Position numbers and translations under genes: made by a program. Shown one piece after another: positions 20,379 through 27,077 of a DNA stretch of 41,371 nt. Position 1 is the first letter of the stretch. Each line of letters starts with the position of its first letter. Source of the DNA: Marivivens sp. (lineage in GTDB: Bacteria; Pseudomonadota; Alphaproteobacteria; Rhodobacterales; Rhodobacteraceae); the NCBI GenBank assembly GCA_024642145.1, contig JAHEBS010000003.1, forward strand, positions 1 through 41,371, in the 5' to 3' direction. The notes below the pieces were generated by a model. It made no database searches. It was given only the letters and a program-made list of their open reading frames with translations, and was not told the origin of the DNA.

Positions 20379-21839
20379 TCAGGCGCCGATGGCCTCGGCG
20401 ATAATCTCGATGCCCTCGCGTATACGGTTCGCCGCAATCGAGGAATAGGCCAGCCGGTAATAGTTTTGCGGCGCATCGGGCGCGGCGAAAAATGACCGCC
20501 CGGGCTCAATCAGCACGCTTTTGTCGCGCAGCCGCAGTGCAAGGTCTTCGGTATCGACCCCCTCGGGGGCCTTCATCCAGATCGACGAGCCGCCATAGGC
20601 GCCTTCGCCCGCGACCGACAGGCCGAATTCGGCGATGGCGTCATCGGTCACGCGGCGGCGTTCATGCAAAACGCGCGACACGCGCCGGATCAGCGAGTCG
20701 TAATGGCCGAGCGAGAGGAAATAGGCCGCCGTGCGCTGCATCTGTCCGGGCGGGTGGCGCAGCACCGTGGCGCGCAGCGCGCGGGCCTCGCGGATGAACG
20801 CCTCGGGACCGACAAGATAGCCCAGCCGGAGACCGGGAAAGAGCGATTTCGAGAAGCTGCCGATGTAGATGACCCGCCCGTTGCGATCGAGCGATTTGAG
20901 CGCGGGCGAGGGCGGCTTGAGAAAGGACATCTCGAATTCGTAGTCGTCCTCGACGATCAGAAGATCCTCACGCTCGGCCCGTTGCAACAATTGTTCGCGC
21001 CGCGCCAAGGGCATGGTGGCGGTCGTCGGGCATTGGTGGCTAGGTGTGGTAAAGACCGCGTCCGTGCCCAGCGGAATGTCGTCGGGGTTAAGACCGTCCT
21101 CGTCGATCGGCACGGCGTCTAACTGACAACGCGCCTGTGTCAGGATCCAGCGCTGCGTGGAATAACAGGGGTCCTCGACCACCGCGCGGCGGCGCTGGTT
21201 CAGCAGCACATGCGCCGACAGCCACAGCGCGTTTTGCGCGCCCATGGTGACAAGGATTTCCTCTGGACGGGCCAGAATGCCACGGCGCGGCAGGCTGTGA
21301 CGGGCGATGAATTCGACCAGCTTGGGGTCGTCGGCGTCATATTGATCCGAGGTCAACGAGTAGAAATCGCGCTTGCCCAGTGCCTGCAGGGCGCAAAGCC
21401 GCCAGTTGGCGCTGTCAAACAGGGTCGGATCGGCCTGACCGTAAATGAAGGGAAAGCGAAAGCTGGCCCAGTCGGCAGGTCGCGTCACCGCAGGGGCCAT
21501 GGTATAGCGCTGGCCGCCCAAGATGCGCGCCCAATCAACACTGCCAGTTCCTTCGGCATTGGCCGGAAAACTTGGCGGTTCGGGCGCGTTTTCCGAAACG
21601 TAATAGCCCGACCGTCCGCGCGACACGAGATAATCGTCGGCCACCAGTTCGGTATAGGCCAAGGTCACGGTAATGCGGCTGACGCCCAGATGTTCGGCCA
21701 GTTTGCGTGACGAGGGCAGCTTTTCGCCCGGCATGAAGCGCCCTGCAAGAATGCCCTGCGCGACCATCTGCTGAATGCGCGCTTGCAATGTGCCTTCGGT
21801 GGCGGGGTCCAGAAAGAATGAATCGGTCGAAATGGGCAT
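20379..21839 (-). CDS. MocR/GntR-family regulator with aminotransferase domain (TauR-like candidate)
   Basis: The 486-residue protein has an N-terminal GntR winged helix (residues 12-80: ILAGRFMPGEKLPSSRKLAE and SRITVTLAYTEL). A class-I aminotransferase fold follows at about 115-480. The PLP-binding Lys is K331 in GSFSKSLFPGLRLGY. MocR proteins sense an amino-group compound or PLP and activate nearby metabolic genes. In Rhodobacter, TauR of this family activates taurine genes. Here it precedes the TauE/SafE exporter and SoeABC, and a taurine aminotransferase lies 4 kb away, so a taurine or sulfonate role is a reasonable inference. Other members (PdxR, GabR) respond to PLP or GABA, and sequence alone does not decide. 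Confidence 0.88.
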   Translation of the reverse strand: MPISTDSFFLDPATEGTLQARIQQMVAQGILAGRFMPGEKLPSSRKLAEHLGVSRITVTLAYTELVADDYLVSRGRSGYYVSENAPEPPSFPANAEGTGSVDWARILGGQRYTMAPAVTRPADWASFRFPFIYGQADPTLFDSANWRLCALQALGKRDFYSLTSDQYDADDPKLVEFIARHSLPRRGILARPEEILVTMGAQNALWLSAHVLLNQRRRAVVEDPCYSTQRWILTQARCQLDAVPIDEDGLNPDDIPLGTDAVFTTPSHQCPTTATMPLARREQLLQRAEREDLLIVEDDYEFEMSFLKPPSPALKSLDRNGRVIYIGSFSKSLFPGLRLGYLVGPEAFIREARALRATVLRHPPGQMQRTAAYFLSLGHYDSLIRRVSRVLHERRRVTDDAIAEFGLSVAGEGAYGGSSIWMKAPEGVDTEDLALRLRDKSVLIEPGRSFFAAPDAPQNYYRLAYSSIAANRIREGIEIIAEAIGA

Positions 21840-21845
21840 GGGTTT

Positions 21846-21873
21846 GGCCTTATTAGGCCTATTAGACTGGCCT
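21846..21873. promoter_or_regulatory. Candidate MocR operator: tandem TATTAG and GGCCT/AGGCC repeats
   Basis: TATTAG occurs twice in the same direction, at 21851-21856 and 21860-21865, nine bases apart. The blocks GGCCT (21846-21850), AGGCC (21855-21859) and GGCCT (21869-21873) interleave with it and form a palindrome-like array. It starts 6 bp upstream of the MocR start and lies in the divergent region shared with the rhodanese gene. MocR-type regulators are known to use direct repeats near their own promoter. The assignment is inferred from layout. Confidence 0.45.
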
Positions 21874-21956
21874 TAAAATGCTGCTTTGGCAAGGGCTGGC
21901 GTTCCGGCGTGGGCCATGTCACGCTTGCGGGGAATGATCCGTTATGGGAGGGACCT

Positions 21957-22352
21957 ATGGTCAAGACTGTCAAAAGCCTGCTGGAAGACGCCAATGCGGC
22001 CGTGCCGCGTGTGACCCTTGCCGAGGCCAAACGCCTGATGGCGGAACAGGGCGCTGTCATCATCGACGTGCGCGACGCGCCCGAACTGGAAAAGATGGGG
22101 CGCATTCCCGGATCGCATCATATTCCGCGCGGCATGCTTGAATTCCGCGCCGATCCGGCCTCGCCCTATTACAACCCTGAACTCAAGCCCGACCAGCCGG
22201 TGTTGTTGCACTGCGCATCAGGCGGGCGTTCGGCTCTGGCGGGCCAGCGTTTGCAGGAAATGGGCTACACCCAAGTCTTCAATATCGGCGGCTTCAAGGA
22301 CTGGGTCGAGGCCGGTGGCGAGATCGAAGAACCTGTCGATCAAGGCATGTAA
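21957..22352 (+). CDS. Single-domain rhodanese (sulfurtransferase)
   Basis: The 131-residue protein has one rhodanese domain. ITLAEAKRLM-like and VIIDVRDAPELEKMGRIPG blocks lie in the first half. The active-site Cys86 lies in LLHCASGGRSALAGQRL, and GFKDWVEAGGEIE closes the domain. Such proteins transfer sulfane sulfur to cyanide or protein acceptors. The start at 21957 is preceded by GGGAGGGA (21946-21953), better than the upstream in-frame ATG at 21909. It is divergent from the MocR-TauE-SoeABC operon, consistent with a sulfur-metabolism role, and has its own strong terminator. Confidence 0.9.
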   Translation: MVKTVKSLLEDANAAVPRVTLAEAKRLMAEQGAVIIDVRDAPELEKMGRIPGSHHIPRGMLEFRADPASPYYNPELKPDQPVLLHCASGGRSALAGQRLQEMGYTQVFNIGGFKDWVEAGGEIEEPVDQGM

Positions 22353-22378
22353 AGCCAGCCTGTCAGACCTCTAGGGTC

Positions 22379-22412
22379 AAGGCCCGTCCGCGCAGCGCGG
22401 GCGGGCCTTTTT
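22379..22412 (+). terminator. Rho-independent terminator of the rhodanese gene
   Basis: A 14-bp stem (AAGGCCCGTCCGCG with CGCGGGCGGGCCTT, one T-G wobble) has a three-base loop CAG and is followed by a T run on the plus strand. It separates the rhodanese gene from the convergent protease gene, whose stop is at 22418. Confidence 0.88.
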
Positions 22413-22417
22413 GCTGA

Positions 22418-24700
22418 CTAGTTGTCGGCCAGCGCCGCTGTGACCGCATCGGCAAAGGCGCGGCTGTCGACCGCCAGATTGCCTTGGGCAAAGGCACCGT
22501 GCTTGTCCTCGGGGTCGAAATACTGGCTATCGACCGCGATCACCTGCCATGTGCCATCGACCTGCAGCAGGAAGGGCGAACCACTGTCACCATAGGCCGT
22601 GTCGCACTGATGCATGACCGAGTTATCGTCATAGGCCATCGTCAGGCGGCACCCTTCGTTGCCCGAGAGGTTATCGCCGGTGTCCCAGCTATAGCCCGCC
22701 TGATCGACCAAAAGCCCACTGCGCTTGATCTGCGACAGCTCGGCTTCGGTCAGCACATGGATCTCAAGCATCCCGACATAGTTCCCCAGATCGCGATCAA
22801 GCGTCACCAGCGCCCAGTCATGGCCGTTGCCGGTGCCCGGATCGACCGTGTCGGGGCTGTAGGCGGGATCGAAATAGACGGCGATCCCGCGTGCAGTGCC
22901 AAAGTCGCCGCCATGCATGGCCCCCGCCGAGAACGTATCGGGGATCATCGTCTTTATCGCGTCTTCGGTCACGCAATGCGCGGCGGTCAGCACCAGATGC
23001 GGGCCGACCAGCGTGCCGGTGCAGACATGTTCGTCGAAATTCAGAATGCCGATCGCGCGCCAAGGCATCGCCTCGGTCTGGGGCAGGAACCGGTCATCGC
23101 GACCAAAGAAGTGATCGCGCAGCCCCGCGGGGCGGTTGCGACCGATACAGTCGGCCGTATCGGAATAGACCGCGCAAGTGCCGTCGCCCGTTCCGGGTTC
23201 GTTGCAGACCCCGTCAAAGGCGCTGTCGCAGGTGTCGTCGCGGTTGCGCAGATAGGCGACAGTGGAACAGTCGCTGACATCCGTGCCCGAGGTGCAGGCC
23301 CCCGTGCCGATGCCCGGTTCATCGCATTCATTGTCATTGGCGTATTGGCAACTATCCTCGCCGCCTGCCGCCAAGGCACGGCAATCCGCCGCGTCGGTGC
23401 CTGCGTCACAGACGCCGGTGCCGCCAAAGTTGATGTCGTCGCATTCCCCGTCATTGGCGTATTGGCAGCTATCATTGCCAAGCTGGCTGCGCACATCCGA
23501 CGGCAAGAGCGCCAAGAGGGCATCATATTGGGCCTGCGCATCCGCAGTTATGGCGGCGCAGTCATTGGTGTCGGTGCCATCCGTGCAGGCACCGGTTCCG
23601 TCGAAACGCGGCTCGTCGCATTCGTTGTCATTGGCATAGGCGCAAGAGTTGTCGCCACCCGCAGCCACCGCGCGACAGTCCGCCGCGTCTGTCCCCGCGC
23701 CGCAATAGCCCTGACCGCCAAAGGCGCTGTCGTCGCATTCGTTGTCATAGGCATATCGGCACGTGTTATCGCCCAGTTGCCGTTGCAGATCGGGGGGCAG
23801 TATCGCCAGCAAAGCGGCAAAATCCGCTTCGCGCTGGGCAACATAACCGCTGCAATCGCTGGCGTCGGTGCCGTCGGTGCAAAGGGTCGAGCCTGTGTTG
23901 TAACGGGGTTCGTCGCACTGACCATCGCGCGCGCTGCTGCAGCTATCGTCGGTCTGACCCACGGCCATCATCCGGCAGTCGTTCGTATCGGTGCCATCGT
24001 CGCAGACGCCGGTGCCGTTATAACGACCTTCGTCGCATTCGTTATCGTTGGCGTATTCGCAGGAATTGGCGGCGTCGGTGCTGGGTGCGGGGGACAGGAC
24101 CGCGCTGGGGGTGGCGCCACCGTTACAATCGGTTGCATCGGTCCAATCCGCGCAAGACCCTGTGCCGCCGGCCCGTACCTCGTCGCATTCGCCATCCTTG
24201 GCGAATTCACAACTATCTTCGCCACCCATGGCCTGTGCGCGGCAGTCGGCCGCGTCGGTGCGCGGGTTGCAATAGCCCGTGCCGCCCAAGGCAAGGTCGT
24301 CGCATTCGCCATCGAAGGCATAGATGCAGGAATTGTCGCCCAGCGCGCCTTGGATGTCGGCAGGCACAAGAGCCATCAGGCTGTTGAAACTATCCAGCCG
24401 CGCGGCGTCAAAGGCCGCGCAGTCGGTGGTGTCCGAACCGTCAACGCAGGCATTCGACTGGTTGCGATAGCGCGGTTCTTCGCAGGCGCCATTACGGGCG
24501 CTGGTGCAACTGTCATTGAGGATGCCCGTCGCCAAGAGCGCGCAATCGGTGGCATCGGTTCCGGCCTCGCAGGCGCCACCACCACCAAACCGCGACTCGT
24601 CACATTCATTGTCGCGGGCGAACTGACAACTGTCAGCGGCCAAGGCGGGGGCGGCGGTCAGGGTTATTGCCACGAACATCAGGGCAGAAAGCAGACGCAT
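22418..24700 (-). CDS. Secreted trypsin-like serine protease with eleven Cys-rich repeats
   Basis: The 760-residue protein starts with a signal peptide (MRLLSALMFVAITLTAAPALA, cut before ADSC). Eleven repeats then fill about residues 23-520. Each has the spacing C-x7-C-x(9-11)-C-x8-C and the consensus DSC-YA-D-ECDE, G-G-C, GTD--DC, rich in Asp/Glu and so likely to bind Ca and form two disulfides. The C-terminal 220 residues are a chymotrypsin-fold protease. Its triad is visible as LTAAHCV (His near 573), GHDWALVTLD (Asp near 627) and CDTAYGDSGSP (Ser near 703). It is presumably exported and extracellular or periplasmic. The repeats recall LNR or LDL-A modules in acidic Cys layout, but I do not recognise the family. 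Monocistronic; the substrate is unknown. Confidence 0.88.
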   Translation of the reverse strand: MRLLSALMFVAITLTAAPALAADSCQFARDNECDESRFGGGGACEAGTDATDCALLATGILNDSCTSARNGACEEPRYRNQSNACVDGSDTTDCAAFDAARLDSFNSLMALVPADIQGALGDNSCIYAFDGECDDLALGGTGYCNPRTDAADCRAQAMGGEDSCEFAKDGECDEVRAGGTGSCADWTDATDCNGGATPSAVLSPAPSTDAANSCEYANDNECDEGRYNGTGVCDDGTDTNDCRMMAVGQTDDSCSSARDGQCDEPRYNTGSTLCTDGTDASDCSGYVAQREADFAALLAILPPDLQRQLGDNTCRYAYDNECDDSAFGGQGYCGAGTDAADCRAVAAGGDNSCAYANDNECDEPRFDGTGACTDGTDTNDCAAITADAQAQYDALLALLPSDVRSQLGNDSCQYANDGECDDINFGGTGVCDAGTDAADCRALAAGGEDSCQYANDNECDEPGIGTGACTSGTDVSDCSTVAYLRNRDDTCDSAFDGVCNEPGTGDGTCAVYSDTADCIGRNRPAGLRDHFFGRDDRFLPQTEAMPWRAIGILNFDEHVCTGTLVGPHLVLTAAHCVTEDAIKTMIPDTFSAGAMHGGDFGTARGIAVYFDPAYSPDTVDPGTGNGHDWALVTLDRDLGNYVGMLEIHVLTEAELSQIKRSGLLVDQAGYSWDTGDNLSGNEGCRLTMAYDDNSVMHQCDTAYGDSGSPFLLQVDGTWQVIAVDSQYFDPEDKHGAFAQGNLAVDSRAFADAVTAALADN

Positions 24701-24766
24701 GTCATCCTCGCAGGGCCATTTGGGCCTATGCTAGGCGTGTCGGCCCCTTCCGGCCAAGGGATATTA

Positions 24767-25459
24767 TCAGAAGGTCAGCGGGGATTTCTGGCGACCGCGG
24801 GCGTCGAAGTTATCGGGATCAAGCCACCGCTGGAATCCCGCCTTCAAGCGGGGCCAGTCCTTGTCGATAATGGCAAACCACGCGGTATCGCGATTACGGC
24901 CCTTGTAATGGATCGCCTGCCTGAACGTGCCCTCGTAGACAAAACCCAGTCGCGCCGCGGCCCGTCGCGAGGGCGCGTTCAGGGCGTCACATTTCCACTC
25001 ATAGCGGCGGTAGCCCAATTCATCGAAGGCGCGCGACATCATCAGATACATGGCCTCGGTCGCAGCGGCCGTGCGCTGCATCCGCGGCGAAAAGGCAAGG
25101 TTACCCACCTCGATCACGCCGTTTGCCGGATCGATCCTGAGGTATGAGCCCCAACCCACAGGCTCGCCCAATTGATCCAGAACCGTATAGAATAGCGGGT
25201 CGTCGCCCGTGCAGCGTTGTTCCAGAAACAGCCGCAGATCGCTTTCACGGGCGAAGGGGCCGTAGGGCATATAGGTCCAATTGCGCCCTTCCGCATCCAG
25301 CGCAAAGGCCAGTTCCAGCCCCGTTGCATGGGCAACAGGGTCCATTGGCACAAGGGTGACGCGCTGGCCGTGCATCGCCGTCCGGTCGGGGCGGGGGCGG
25401 GGCAGATCGACGTCCAGCGGGTCGCCGACTGGTTGGCCGAACTCGTTCTGGCGCGTCAT
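24767..25459 (-). CDS. GNAT-family N-acetyltransferase (RimJ/RimL-like)
   Basis: The 230-residue protein has a GNAT fold of the RimJ/RimL type. The visible blocks are VIEVGNLAFSPRMQRTAAATEA (split in two) around the acetyl-CoA site, YRRYEWKCDALNAPSRRAAARL, and GFVYEGTFRQAIHYKGRNRDTAWFAI. The last two are typical of the C-terminal half. The substrate is unknown; relatives acetylate protein N-termini or small amines. The start at 25459 has GGGGGAT upstream; a longer in-frame start at 25489 overlaps the terminator of the preceding gene. It follows tpa on the same strand but is separated from it by that terminator, so it is probably transcribed alone. Confidence 0.88.
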   Translation of the reverse strand: MTRQNEFGQPVGDPLDVDLPRPRPDRTAMHGQRVTLVPMDPVAHATGLELAFALDAEGRNWTYMPYGPFARESDLRLFLEQRCTGDDPLFYTVLDQLGEPVGWGSYLRIDPANGVIEVGNLAFSPRMQRTAAATEAMYLMMSRAFDELGYRRYEWKCDALNAPSRRAAARLGFVYEGTFRQAIHYKGRNRDTAWFAIIDKDWPRLKAGFQRWLDPDNFDARGRQKSPLTF

Positions 25460-25475
25460 GTGATCCCCCGAAATG

Positions 25476-25504
25476 AAAAGGCCCGGCACTTGGCCGGGCC
25501 CTTT
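25476..25504 (-). terminator. Terminator between tpa and the GNAT gene
   Basis: An 8-bp GC stem, GGCCCGGC / GCCGGGCC, with loop CAAGT on the minus strand, is followed by TTTT. It lies 12 bases after the tpa stop. Confidence 0.8.
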
Positions 25505-25515
25505 GCGTGTCCGGC

Positions 25516-26898
25516 CTAGCCGAAAACTTTGGTCAGCGCGGCATCAACCGCGCCGGTGATCTCGTCAATATCGCTGGATGTGGCGATCAGCGCGGGCGCG
25601 AACAGGAGCGTGTTGTTCAGCCCCGGCATCGAGCGGTTCGATGCGCCGATCATCACGCCCTGCCGCAGGCAGTCCGCAACCACCGCACCGACCTGCGCTT
25701 CGGAGGCGGGCTCTTTGGTGACGCGGTCGGCAACAAGTTCGGCCCCCGCAAAAAGACCCTTGCCGCGCACATCGCCAATGGCGCGGTGCTTGTCCATCAG
25801 CGCCATCAGGTTGGCATTCAGCCGCTCGCCCATCTTGGTCGAGTTGGCGCAAAGCCCTTCGTCCTCGATGATACGCATGTTCTCCAGTGCCGCCACGGGA
25901 CCAGAGGTGCAGCCACCAAAGGTTGAAATGTCACGGAAATGGCCGAGCTTGTCGGTGTCGTCCTTGAACATGTCGAACACACGTTCGGTGGTCACGCAGC
26001 ACGAAATAGCCGCATAGCCCGAGGCGACGCCCTTGGCCATGGTCACGATATCGGGCTGGACGCCGTATTGCTGATAGCCAAACCACGTGCCGGTGCGGCC
26101 AAGGCCGCAAACGACCTCGTCGATATGCAGCAAGATATCGTATTTGCGGCAGATCTCCTGCACCTTTTCCCAATAGCCCTTGGGCGGGGTCAGTGCGCCG
26201 CCGCCTGCGGTGATGGGCTCGAGGCAGAGCGCGCCGACCGTGTCGGGGCCCTCGCGCAGGATCACCTTTTCGATCTCGAGCGCGGCCAATTCGCCATAAT
26301 TCTCGCCCGCAAGACCGGCCTGCGCGCGGTATTCCGAACAATGCGGAACCATCACAAAGTCGGGCACGAAGGGCCCGTACATCGCATTGCGTTCCTGCTG
26401 GCCACCCGCCGAAATCGTGGCGATGGTGCCGCCATGATAGTCGCGGTCGCGGTAGAGGATCTTGCTCTTCTTGCCGCCATGGTGCTTGTGCGAAATCTGC
26501 CGCACCATCTTGAAGGCCTTCTCGTTGGCTTCGGAGCCCGAGTTGGCATAGTAGACACGGGACAGACCGGGCATCTTTTCGATCAGACGCTGGGCAAATT
26601 GCGCGCCGGGGATGGTGCCCTTGGCGCCCGCGAAATAGCACATCTTGACCAGCGCATCACGCACCGCATCGGCGATTTCCGTGCGGCCATAGCCCACGTT
26701 CACGGTCCAGACGCCGCCGGAAACCGCATCGAGGAATTCCTTGCCGGTGATGTCCCAGACCCGCAGGCCCTTGCCCTCAACGATGATCTGGGGGTCGACG
26801 GTTTCGAACGGCTTATGCTGGACCAGATGGTGCCAGACGTGGGCGCGATCGGCCTCGATGACCTGACGGGGGTCGTTGCTGAACTGACGGCTATCCAT
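25516..26898 (-). CDS. tpa: Taurine-pyruvate aminotransferase (class III PLP enzyme)
   Basis: The 460-residue class III aminotransferase would move the amino group of taurine to pyruvate, giving sulfoacetaldehyde and alanine (EC 2.6.1.77). Features close to known Tpa proteins are HVWHHLVQHKPFET, DAVSGGVWTVNVGYGR, YYANSGSEANEKAFKMVR, LLHIDEVVCGLGRTGTWFGY and the PLP Lys in TMAKGVASGYAAISCCVTTE. MDSRQFSN at 26898 is the start, with GGGAG five bases upstream. The frame runs to 26916 without support. Xsc, the next enzyme, is not in the window. Other class III omega-aminotransferases are the main alternative. Confidence 0.78.
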   Translation of the reverse strand: MDSRQFSNDPRQVIEADRAHVWHHLVQHKPFETVDPQIIVEGKGLRVWDITGKEFLDAVSGGVWTVNVGYGRTEIADAVRDALVKMCYFAGAKGTIPGAQFAQRLIEKMPGLSRVYYANSGSEANEKAFKMVRQISHKHHGGKKSKILYRDRDYHGGTIATISAGGQQERNAMYGPFVPDFVMVPHCSEYRAQAGLAGENYGELAALEIEKVILREGPDTVGALCLEPITAGGGALTPPKGYWEKVQEICRKYDILLHIDEVVCGLGRTGTWFGYQQYGVQPDIVTMAKGVASGYAAISCCVTTERVFDMFKDDTDKLGHFRDISTFGGCTSGPVAALENMRIIEDEGLCANSTKMGERLNANLMALMDKHRAIGDVRGKGLFAGAELVADRVTKEPASEAQVGAVVADCLRQGVMIGASNRSMPGLNNTLLFAPALIATSSDIDEITGAVDAALTKVFG

Positions 26899-27077
26899 GA
26901 GTGCTCCCTTAGGCACGTGAACTGGGCCAAGCGGCGAATCCGCCTAGCCACGATTTCTGGCAACAGTTTGCGCGATAAACACTGTCGCACAATATGACCA
27001 AGGGCCACGCGCTGTAGGTCCAAATCACGCCGTCAGCGCCATTTTTGGCCTGCGACCGCCTGTCGCGCGGGTGGGGC

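Follow-up and report, generated by a model that had tools for sequence, protein, structure and literature searches.

The window, as we call the whole 41,371-nucleotide stretch of DNA from the marine-type alphaproteobacterium Marivivens sp. that was analysed, carries on its minus strand a gene for an exported protease preceded by an array of eleven short cysteine-rich repeats (Table 1). Its neighbours, within positions 20379-26916, are a MocR regulator and a rhodanese on one side and a GNAT protein and a class-III aminotransferase on the other. The regulator and the aminotransferase flank the gene in most of the fetched loci of the Octadecabacter clade; other clades have other neighbours. With a neighbourhood that differs between clades, we claim no operon or functional link with these genes. 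An acetolactate-synthase-like (Xsc-like) gene is also found nearby in Octadecabacter, and the array-protease locus may be a taurine-use locus. On the plus strand, an 887-residue open frame (22484-25147) runs antisense across the protease gene. This frame is the antisense shadow of a GC-rich gene, and its likeness to frames elsewhere is due to the sense gene and is no evidence for a second protein.

Table 1. Features of the array-protease gene and its product, with positions in the window.
Feature	Residues	Positions	Strand	Basis or remark
Whole gene, 760-aa exported array protease		22418..24700	-	ATG start; translation, homologues, dN/dS
Signal peptide (ALA-AD junction)	1-21	24638..24700	-	Visible in translation
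Repeat R1	25-53	24542..24628	-	
Repeat R2	65-94	24419..24508	-	
30-residue linker, predicted helix type	95-124	24329..24418	-	Same linker class helical in five-repeat model
Repeat R3	125-153	24242..24328	-	
Repeat R4	164-192	24125..24211	-	
Repeat R5	214-242	23975..24061	-	
Repeat R6	254-283	23852..23941	-	
Repeat R7	314-342	23675..23761	-	In 294-bp segmental repeat family D2
Repeat R8	353-381	23558..23644	-	
Core repeat R9	412-440	23381..23467	-	
Core repeat R10	451-478	23267..23350	-	Most conserved module, mean entropy 0.68 bits
Core repeat R11, specialised last repeat, putative docking repeat	491-518	23147..23230	-	
Arg-rich linker between array and protease	519-529	23114..23146	-	Conserved GR.RP
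YdgD-like S1 protease domain	530-760	22421..23113	-	Pfam, phmmer, Foldseek
Catalytic H575 (H57 equivalent)		22976-22978	-	
Catalytic D628 (D102 equivalent)		22817-22819	-	
Catalytic S706 (S195 equivalent)		22583-22585	-	

An earlier sequence-only reading had proposed an exported protein with a signal peptide. This was borne out by the translation, where the signal peptide reads MRLLSALMFVAITLTAAPALA and is likely cleaved after residue 21. All 44 cysteines of the array lie inside the repeats, and a further four are found in the protease. Residues 1-520 are strongly acidic, with 98 D/E versus 24 K/R, and we saw neither a sorting motif nor an anchor in the window protein. The window's 30-residue linkers are predicted to form two helices (residues 68-87 and 91-97 of a five-repeat AlphaFold2 model), in the one model of the array that reached moderate confidence.

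The repeats lie between residues 25 and 518, are 28-30 residues long and have a cysteine spacing of 7/(9,10,11)/8. The sequence-only reading had described eleven repeats of the form C-x7-C-x(9-11)-C-x8-C, and its coordinates and counts proved right, with every one of the 44 cysteines accounted for. It had also called an ECD patch invariant; the patch is indeed common, but R2 reads ACEE and R11 reads VCNE. The columns that are invariant across the window's repeats are C1, A4, C9, C20, D25, D28 and C29. Among the acidic positions, D25 and D28 are invariant or nearly so, and D6 and D10 are D, N or E in nearly all repeats. The spacing was kept almost always in 374 repeats from other genomes (7-9-8 in 205, 7-10-8 in 160). 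The repeat is a real conserved module, far beyond chance.

At the DNA level, the repeats of the window are mutually only 60-75% alike. As their spacing is nevertheless kept across the 374 repeats, they are maintained by selection at the protein level. Tandem Repeats Finder found nothing in the array DNA. With this result and copies of such low similarity, we rejected a recent tandem expansion at the DNA level, and the array is therefore old. Purifying selection acts on the array: between close relatives, dN/dS ranged from 0.02 to 0.23 in the array and from 0.02 to 0.17 in the protease, although these values are rough, with many dS above 1.

The repeat had been said to match no named bacterial domain, which our searches confirmed, as it is absent from Pfam, NCBIfam and the PDB sequences. 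Queries of Pfam and NCBIfam by hmmscan, using the window protein and relatives of each kind, returned only the protease plus sub-threshold noise, and the proposed profile search against family databases matched no described repeat family. Repeat profiles run against PDB sequences gave nothing meaningful; matches to gp120 were set aside as a short coincidence around C(N/K)(D/E)xxFNGTGxC. A Foldseek search with the five-repeat model yielded zero matches, to which we attach little weight since the model is weak. Literature searches returned no paper with the typical motif string of the repeat and none describing Lin12-Notch repeats (LNRs) in bacteria. A viral or phage origin of the array was rejected, as a search of IMG/VR found no viral relative. 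Spread of the array on plasmids was likewise rejected, as matches in PLSDB span the protease domain only.

The protease domain matches Pfam Trypsin (2e-13), and the residues H575, D628 and S706 are in invariant columns of 70 homologues. The trypsin-like triad that had been read from the sequence is thus intact, and its trypsin context and a fold match to 7uxg place the domain in peptidase family S1 (trypsin fold), YdgD-like. Several residues are conserved in array-bearing enzymes and not in array-less ones. These include W672, T674, G675, S679 and G680, all in a loop that follows the AGY strand and by homology would be the autolysis loop. In the S1 pocket, they include T701, D724 and F/Y727 (positions 190, 213 and 216). 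Position 213 is Asp in array-bearing enzymes and His in most array-less relatives. These clade-specific residues could be ordinary divergence, because the array-less comparison set is small (n = 15) and distant. The presence of D700 (position 189) and D724 (position 213) in the S1 pocket suggests that a basic P1 residue is probably preferred.

An alignment-based search of species-representative genomes identified 355 related stretches, of which we retrieved the best 80 together with the names of their organisms. The array, whose presence in close homologues the sequence-only reading had treated as decisive, is found in these relatives. Among the fetched relatives, proteases of Octadecabacter and Pseudooctadecabacter mostly have eight or nine repeats, those of Rubellimicrobium mostly five or six, those of Pararhodobacter mostly four, and those of Maricaulis, Oceanicaulis, Glycocaulis and Hyphomonadaceae three. 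Eleven is the highest number seen on any protease, and array expansion is confined to Rhodobacterales among the relatives examined. Outward from the repeats nearest the protease, Rhodobacterales proteins have a linker of 26-29 residues followed by further repeats, with outer linker lengths that vary between lineages. Compared with Octadecabacter, the window has an extra repeat-10-repeat-30 unit (R7-R8 plus a 30-residue linker), which is an old 294-bp duplication with 70% identity.

Array proteases were found in 7 of 293 genomes of the order, and the wider class contains many array-less relatives. In a maximum-likelihood tree of protease domains, all array-bearing enzymes fell into one strongly supported set (95/89), whose only other members are two paralogues with one repeat each and two array-less rows on long branches. 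The array proteases are thus essentially one alphaproteobacterial clade, and the single supported set implies that the fusion is old, was mainly vertically inherited and expanded in Rhodobacterales. Array proteins at two loci (L065 and L098) are assigned to Chloroflexota through the metagenome-assembled genome Anaerolineae bacterium IP29b_bin.19. Since the protease of L065 is almost identical to that of the alphaproteobacterial locus L080, the contig has probably been mis-binned.

A fixed core of three repeats adjoins the protease in all complete array proteases (77/77). In these proteins, the linkers among the last three repeats are always 10-11 and 12 residues long and the distance from the core to the catalytic His is near-constant, with 0 to 8 outer repeats. 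The mean entropy over 70 homologues was 0.88 bits for R9, 0.68 for R10 and 1.07 for R11, versus 1.65 for the protease. Part of the low entropy of the core repeats must come from the structural need for Cys and Asp, and it may reflect folding alone. Two positions other than Cys and Asp are near-invariant, namely W3 of R10 (92%) and F5 of R11.

The last repeat differs from all others. Across the 77 proteins, every last repeat (100%) has a hydrophobic residue at position 5 (Phe in 94%), as against 4-6% of the others, and position 8 is hydrophobic (Val/Ile-like) in 88% versus 0%, the others mostly having Glu. Conversely, position 3 is aromatic in only 6% of last repeats versus 94-100% of the others. 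R11 is thus hydrophobic at sites where other repeats carry N and E, and its sequence suggests that it is a docking repeat. AlphaFold2 modelled R9-R11 together with the protease at a pLDDT of 92 and a pTM of 0.89; five repeats modelled without the protease reached a pTM of 0.48, with four of five models at a pLDDT of 41-54. These models agree indirectly with docking of R11, from which we infer an interface between R11 and the protease. Taken together, the fixed core, the specialised last repeat and the lineage-specific outer repeats favour a protease-linked role of the core over simple targeting.

Repeats of this type also occur outside the array protease. One locus (L183, G718:C34) encodes an exported protein consisting only of repeats, ten in number, and another protein of repeats only (L098) has at least 13, mostly near-identical 45-residue units, and runs off the contig end. 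Some Octadecabacter have, immediately upstream of the array-protease gene, another gene for an exported protein with three repeats (near position 4000 in L050, L054, L057 and L058). Neighbouring paralogues with a single repeat of the last type were found at two loci (L090, ORF offset 1084, 441 aa; L117, ORF offset 3868, 369 aa), and these have two hydrophobic, membrane-hairpin-like stretches within the protease domain, between the triad Asp and Ser. A two-Cys variant family, lacking Cys 1 and Cys 3, is widespread in other exported proteins. Examples are DDSSQWANDGECDDPRFEG...DASDC and FGDDSSQWANDGECDDPRFEG...DATDC, the latter in one to six copies (L026-L041, L044, L045 and L141-L146). Many carriers of the variant are small exported proteins or lipoproteins, and the one member tested had no Pfam or NCBIfam match. 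In one case (L004), an unnamed domain (DTxLLVNxPDGxWxxNDDSxGxNPxL...GxYDIWxGxY) takes the place of the array before a YdgD-like protease, and the same domain adjoins repeats in L042, L140 and L146. Judging by these arrangements, this domain and the repeat array look as if they were exchangeable exported accessory modules.

The repeat ends, DGxCD and DxxDC, are those of LNRs. The sequence-only reading had noted a resemblance to LNR or LDL-A modules. Our comparison favoured the first part: hhalign of the repeat profile against six Notch LNRs gave P = 6e-4 at a probability of 28%, with the LNR picked after the resemblance had been noticed. When the LNR columns other than Cys were shuffled (n = 100), none of these Cys-fixed decoys reached the real score (0/100). 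The second part did not hold, as 10/100 decoys reached the LDL-A profile score and the repeat has four Cys rather than six; kinship to EGF (27/100 decoys) and to EF-hands (no usable alignment) was rejected as well. The LNR letters used here agree with PDB 3i08 and 2oo4 save for one Notch2 residue. Up to an E-value of 10, Pfam Notch (PF00066) matched neither the window protein, by hmmscan, nor anything in its own genome, and LNR chains were absent among the PDB matches of the repeat profile. Every repeat has four Cys rather than the six Cys and three disulfides of the Notch type, which lowers the case for Notch-type membership only, since PAPP-A LNRs too have fewer than three disulfides (PMC9579167). 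With four Cys and no match in Pfam, the repeat falls short of formal membership. It is plausible that the repeat works like an LNR; that it is an LNR is unproven.

The disulfide pairing can be approached through natural losses of Cys. Among repeats at the retrieved loci, 298 had all four Cys, 16 had only Cys 2 and Cys 4, and 0 had lost a single Cys. Since Cys 1 and Cys 3 vanish only jointly, 1-3/2-4 disulfides are suggested, albeit from few independent events. The LNRs of PAPP-A have one or two disulfides, paired 1-3/2-4 where there are two (LNR1 and LNR3), and each bind calcium; mutations of their calcium sites abolish the cleavage of IGFBP-4 but not that of IGFBP-5 (PMC9579167).

In our preferred reading, to which we give a probability of roughly 45%, the core R9-R11 is a calcium-stabilised exosite that selects substrates for an exported trypsin-like protease. 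Its observed basis is the anatomy of the protein, the conservation and geometry of the core, the specialised last repeat, purifying selection and the high-confidence core model. R9-R11 would be three LNR-like modules that form an integral part of an exported endopeptidase, N-terminal to its catalytic domain. Each module would be a disulfide-locked knot of about 29 residues with the predicted 1-3/2-4 disulfides, and the putative acidic cage of D6, D10, D25 and D28 would suit one calcium ion per module. The exposed hydrophobic residues of R11 would seat it on the protease, while R9, R10 and, in Rhodobacterales, the extra repeats on helical linkers would project as a rigid acidic exosite. This exosite would pick and hold protein substrates, which the protease would then cut, probably after basic residues. 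The enzyme would thus act much as PAPP-A does with its LNRs, except that the catalytic fold is that of trypsin. Pairing, calcium binding, docking, exosite role and P1 preference are the parts of this model that we infer. Against an exosite, such repeats are also present in proteins that lack a protease (L183, L098 and the Octadecabacter three-repeat protein), and therefore the module is not protease-specific. More tentatively, we propose that calcium-binding LNR modules form a widespread bacterial family with four-Cys and two-Cys members. The alphaproteobacterial protease fusion would then be a built-in exosite that arose as an independent parallel to PAPP-A and Notch, possibly tied to the origin of the animal module.

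An unlikely alternative is that the array is a pro-domain or latch whose core repeats cover the zymogen activation region. A cut in the Arg-rich linker (GRxRP...DHFFGRDDR) would then free a new N-terminus and remove the array, perhaps triggered by the enzyme's own basic-residue specificity or by calcium loss. About 11 residues separate the end of the array from the position aligned with the mature N-terminus of the Bacillus intermedius glutamyl endopeptidase; however, array-less relatives begin a few residues upstream of FFGxDDR, straight after the signal peptide, and therefore the fold needs no pro-domain. Two Arg of the linker are kept in nearly all homologues, but the R523-P524 bond is poorly cut by trypsin-like enzymes, and conservation is lower in the linker than in R9 and R10. 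As no Cys is spare for a disulfide between array and protease (44 + 4), cleavage would indeed release the array, and the clade-specific protease residues lie near the activation-domain loop. Notch LNRs conceal a cleavage site in a calcium-dependent manner (PMC3415683), but a latch does not require expansion to eleven repeats.

We consider it similarly improbable that the array is a calcium-dependent stalk that targets the enzyme to the cell envelope, exopolysaccharide or particles, with catalysis independent of it. Repeat number differs among lineages and repeats are also found alone or beside other exported domains (L183, L098, L042, L140 and L146), as a stalk would allow, but neither the fixed spacing of the three core repeats nor the specialised last repeat that every protease has would be needed for a pure tether. 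The strong acidity of the array would fit such targeting, whereas the lack of any visible sorting motif or anchor in the window protein argues against it. Least probable is that the repeats are mere stability or spacer modules that armour an exported marine enzyme with disulfides and have no specific partner: exported proteins often contain acidic, disulfide-rich repeats and the outer linkers vary in length between lineages, but the array dN/dS is equal to or below that of the protease in several pairs, and the near-invariant W3 of R10 and F5 of R11 go beyond Cys and Asp.

No Pfam or NCBIfam model covers the repeat, an exported module that is conserved and undescribed. One paper treats the LNR unit as confined to Notch and PAPP-A proteins (PMC9579167). 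If the repeat is a true LNR, this unit would gain a protease-coupled bacterial counterpart, which would provide a small, easily expressed system for direct tests of calcium-controlled substrate choice. Even otherwise, it remains a new disulfide-rich repeat whose protease-proximal unit is specialised.

The best solved relative of the protease is Escherichia coli YdgD (PDB 7uxg; phmmer 2.9e-21, Foldseek 1.8e-18), which shares the FFGxDDR start and CDTxxGDSGSP but has no repeats and has Q instead of D at S1 pocket position 213. The glutamyl endopeptidase of Bacillus intermedius (PDB 1p3c) is in the same S1 subgroup by sequence and fold, yet has no array and has His at position 213 (Glu specificity), where the array clade has Asp. 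Of the modules compared, LDL receptor class A is likewise acidic and disulfide-rich with a CxDGxD patch, but has six Cys. The Notch negative regulatory region (PF00066) also has three short Cys/Asp modules in tandem, with DGxCD and DxxDC, and the profile alignment to the repeat is in register across the whole module. Notch LNRs differ in their six Cys and three disulfides, whereas the repeats here have four Cys, carry two additional residues ahead of the DxxDC end and match no Pfam model. PAPP-A (pappalysin-1) is likewise an exported protease, and its modules are LNRs (LNR1-3). However, PAPP-A belongs to the zinc metzincins and has two of its LNRs inside the catalytic domain and one near the C-terminus, while the window protein has a trypsin fold after an N-terminal array of up to eleven modules, with a middle Cys spacing of 9-11 residues and no significant HMM match to LNRs. 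Viewed against these systems, the repeats resemble a bacterial version of the calcium-binding modules with which the animal proteins PAPP-A and Notch direct proteolysis or hold it locked.
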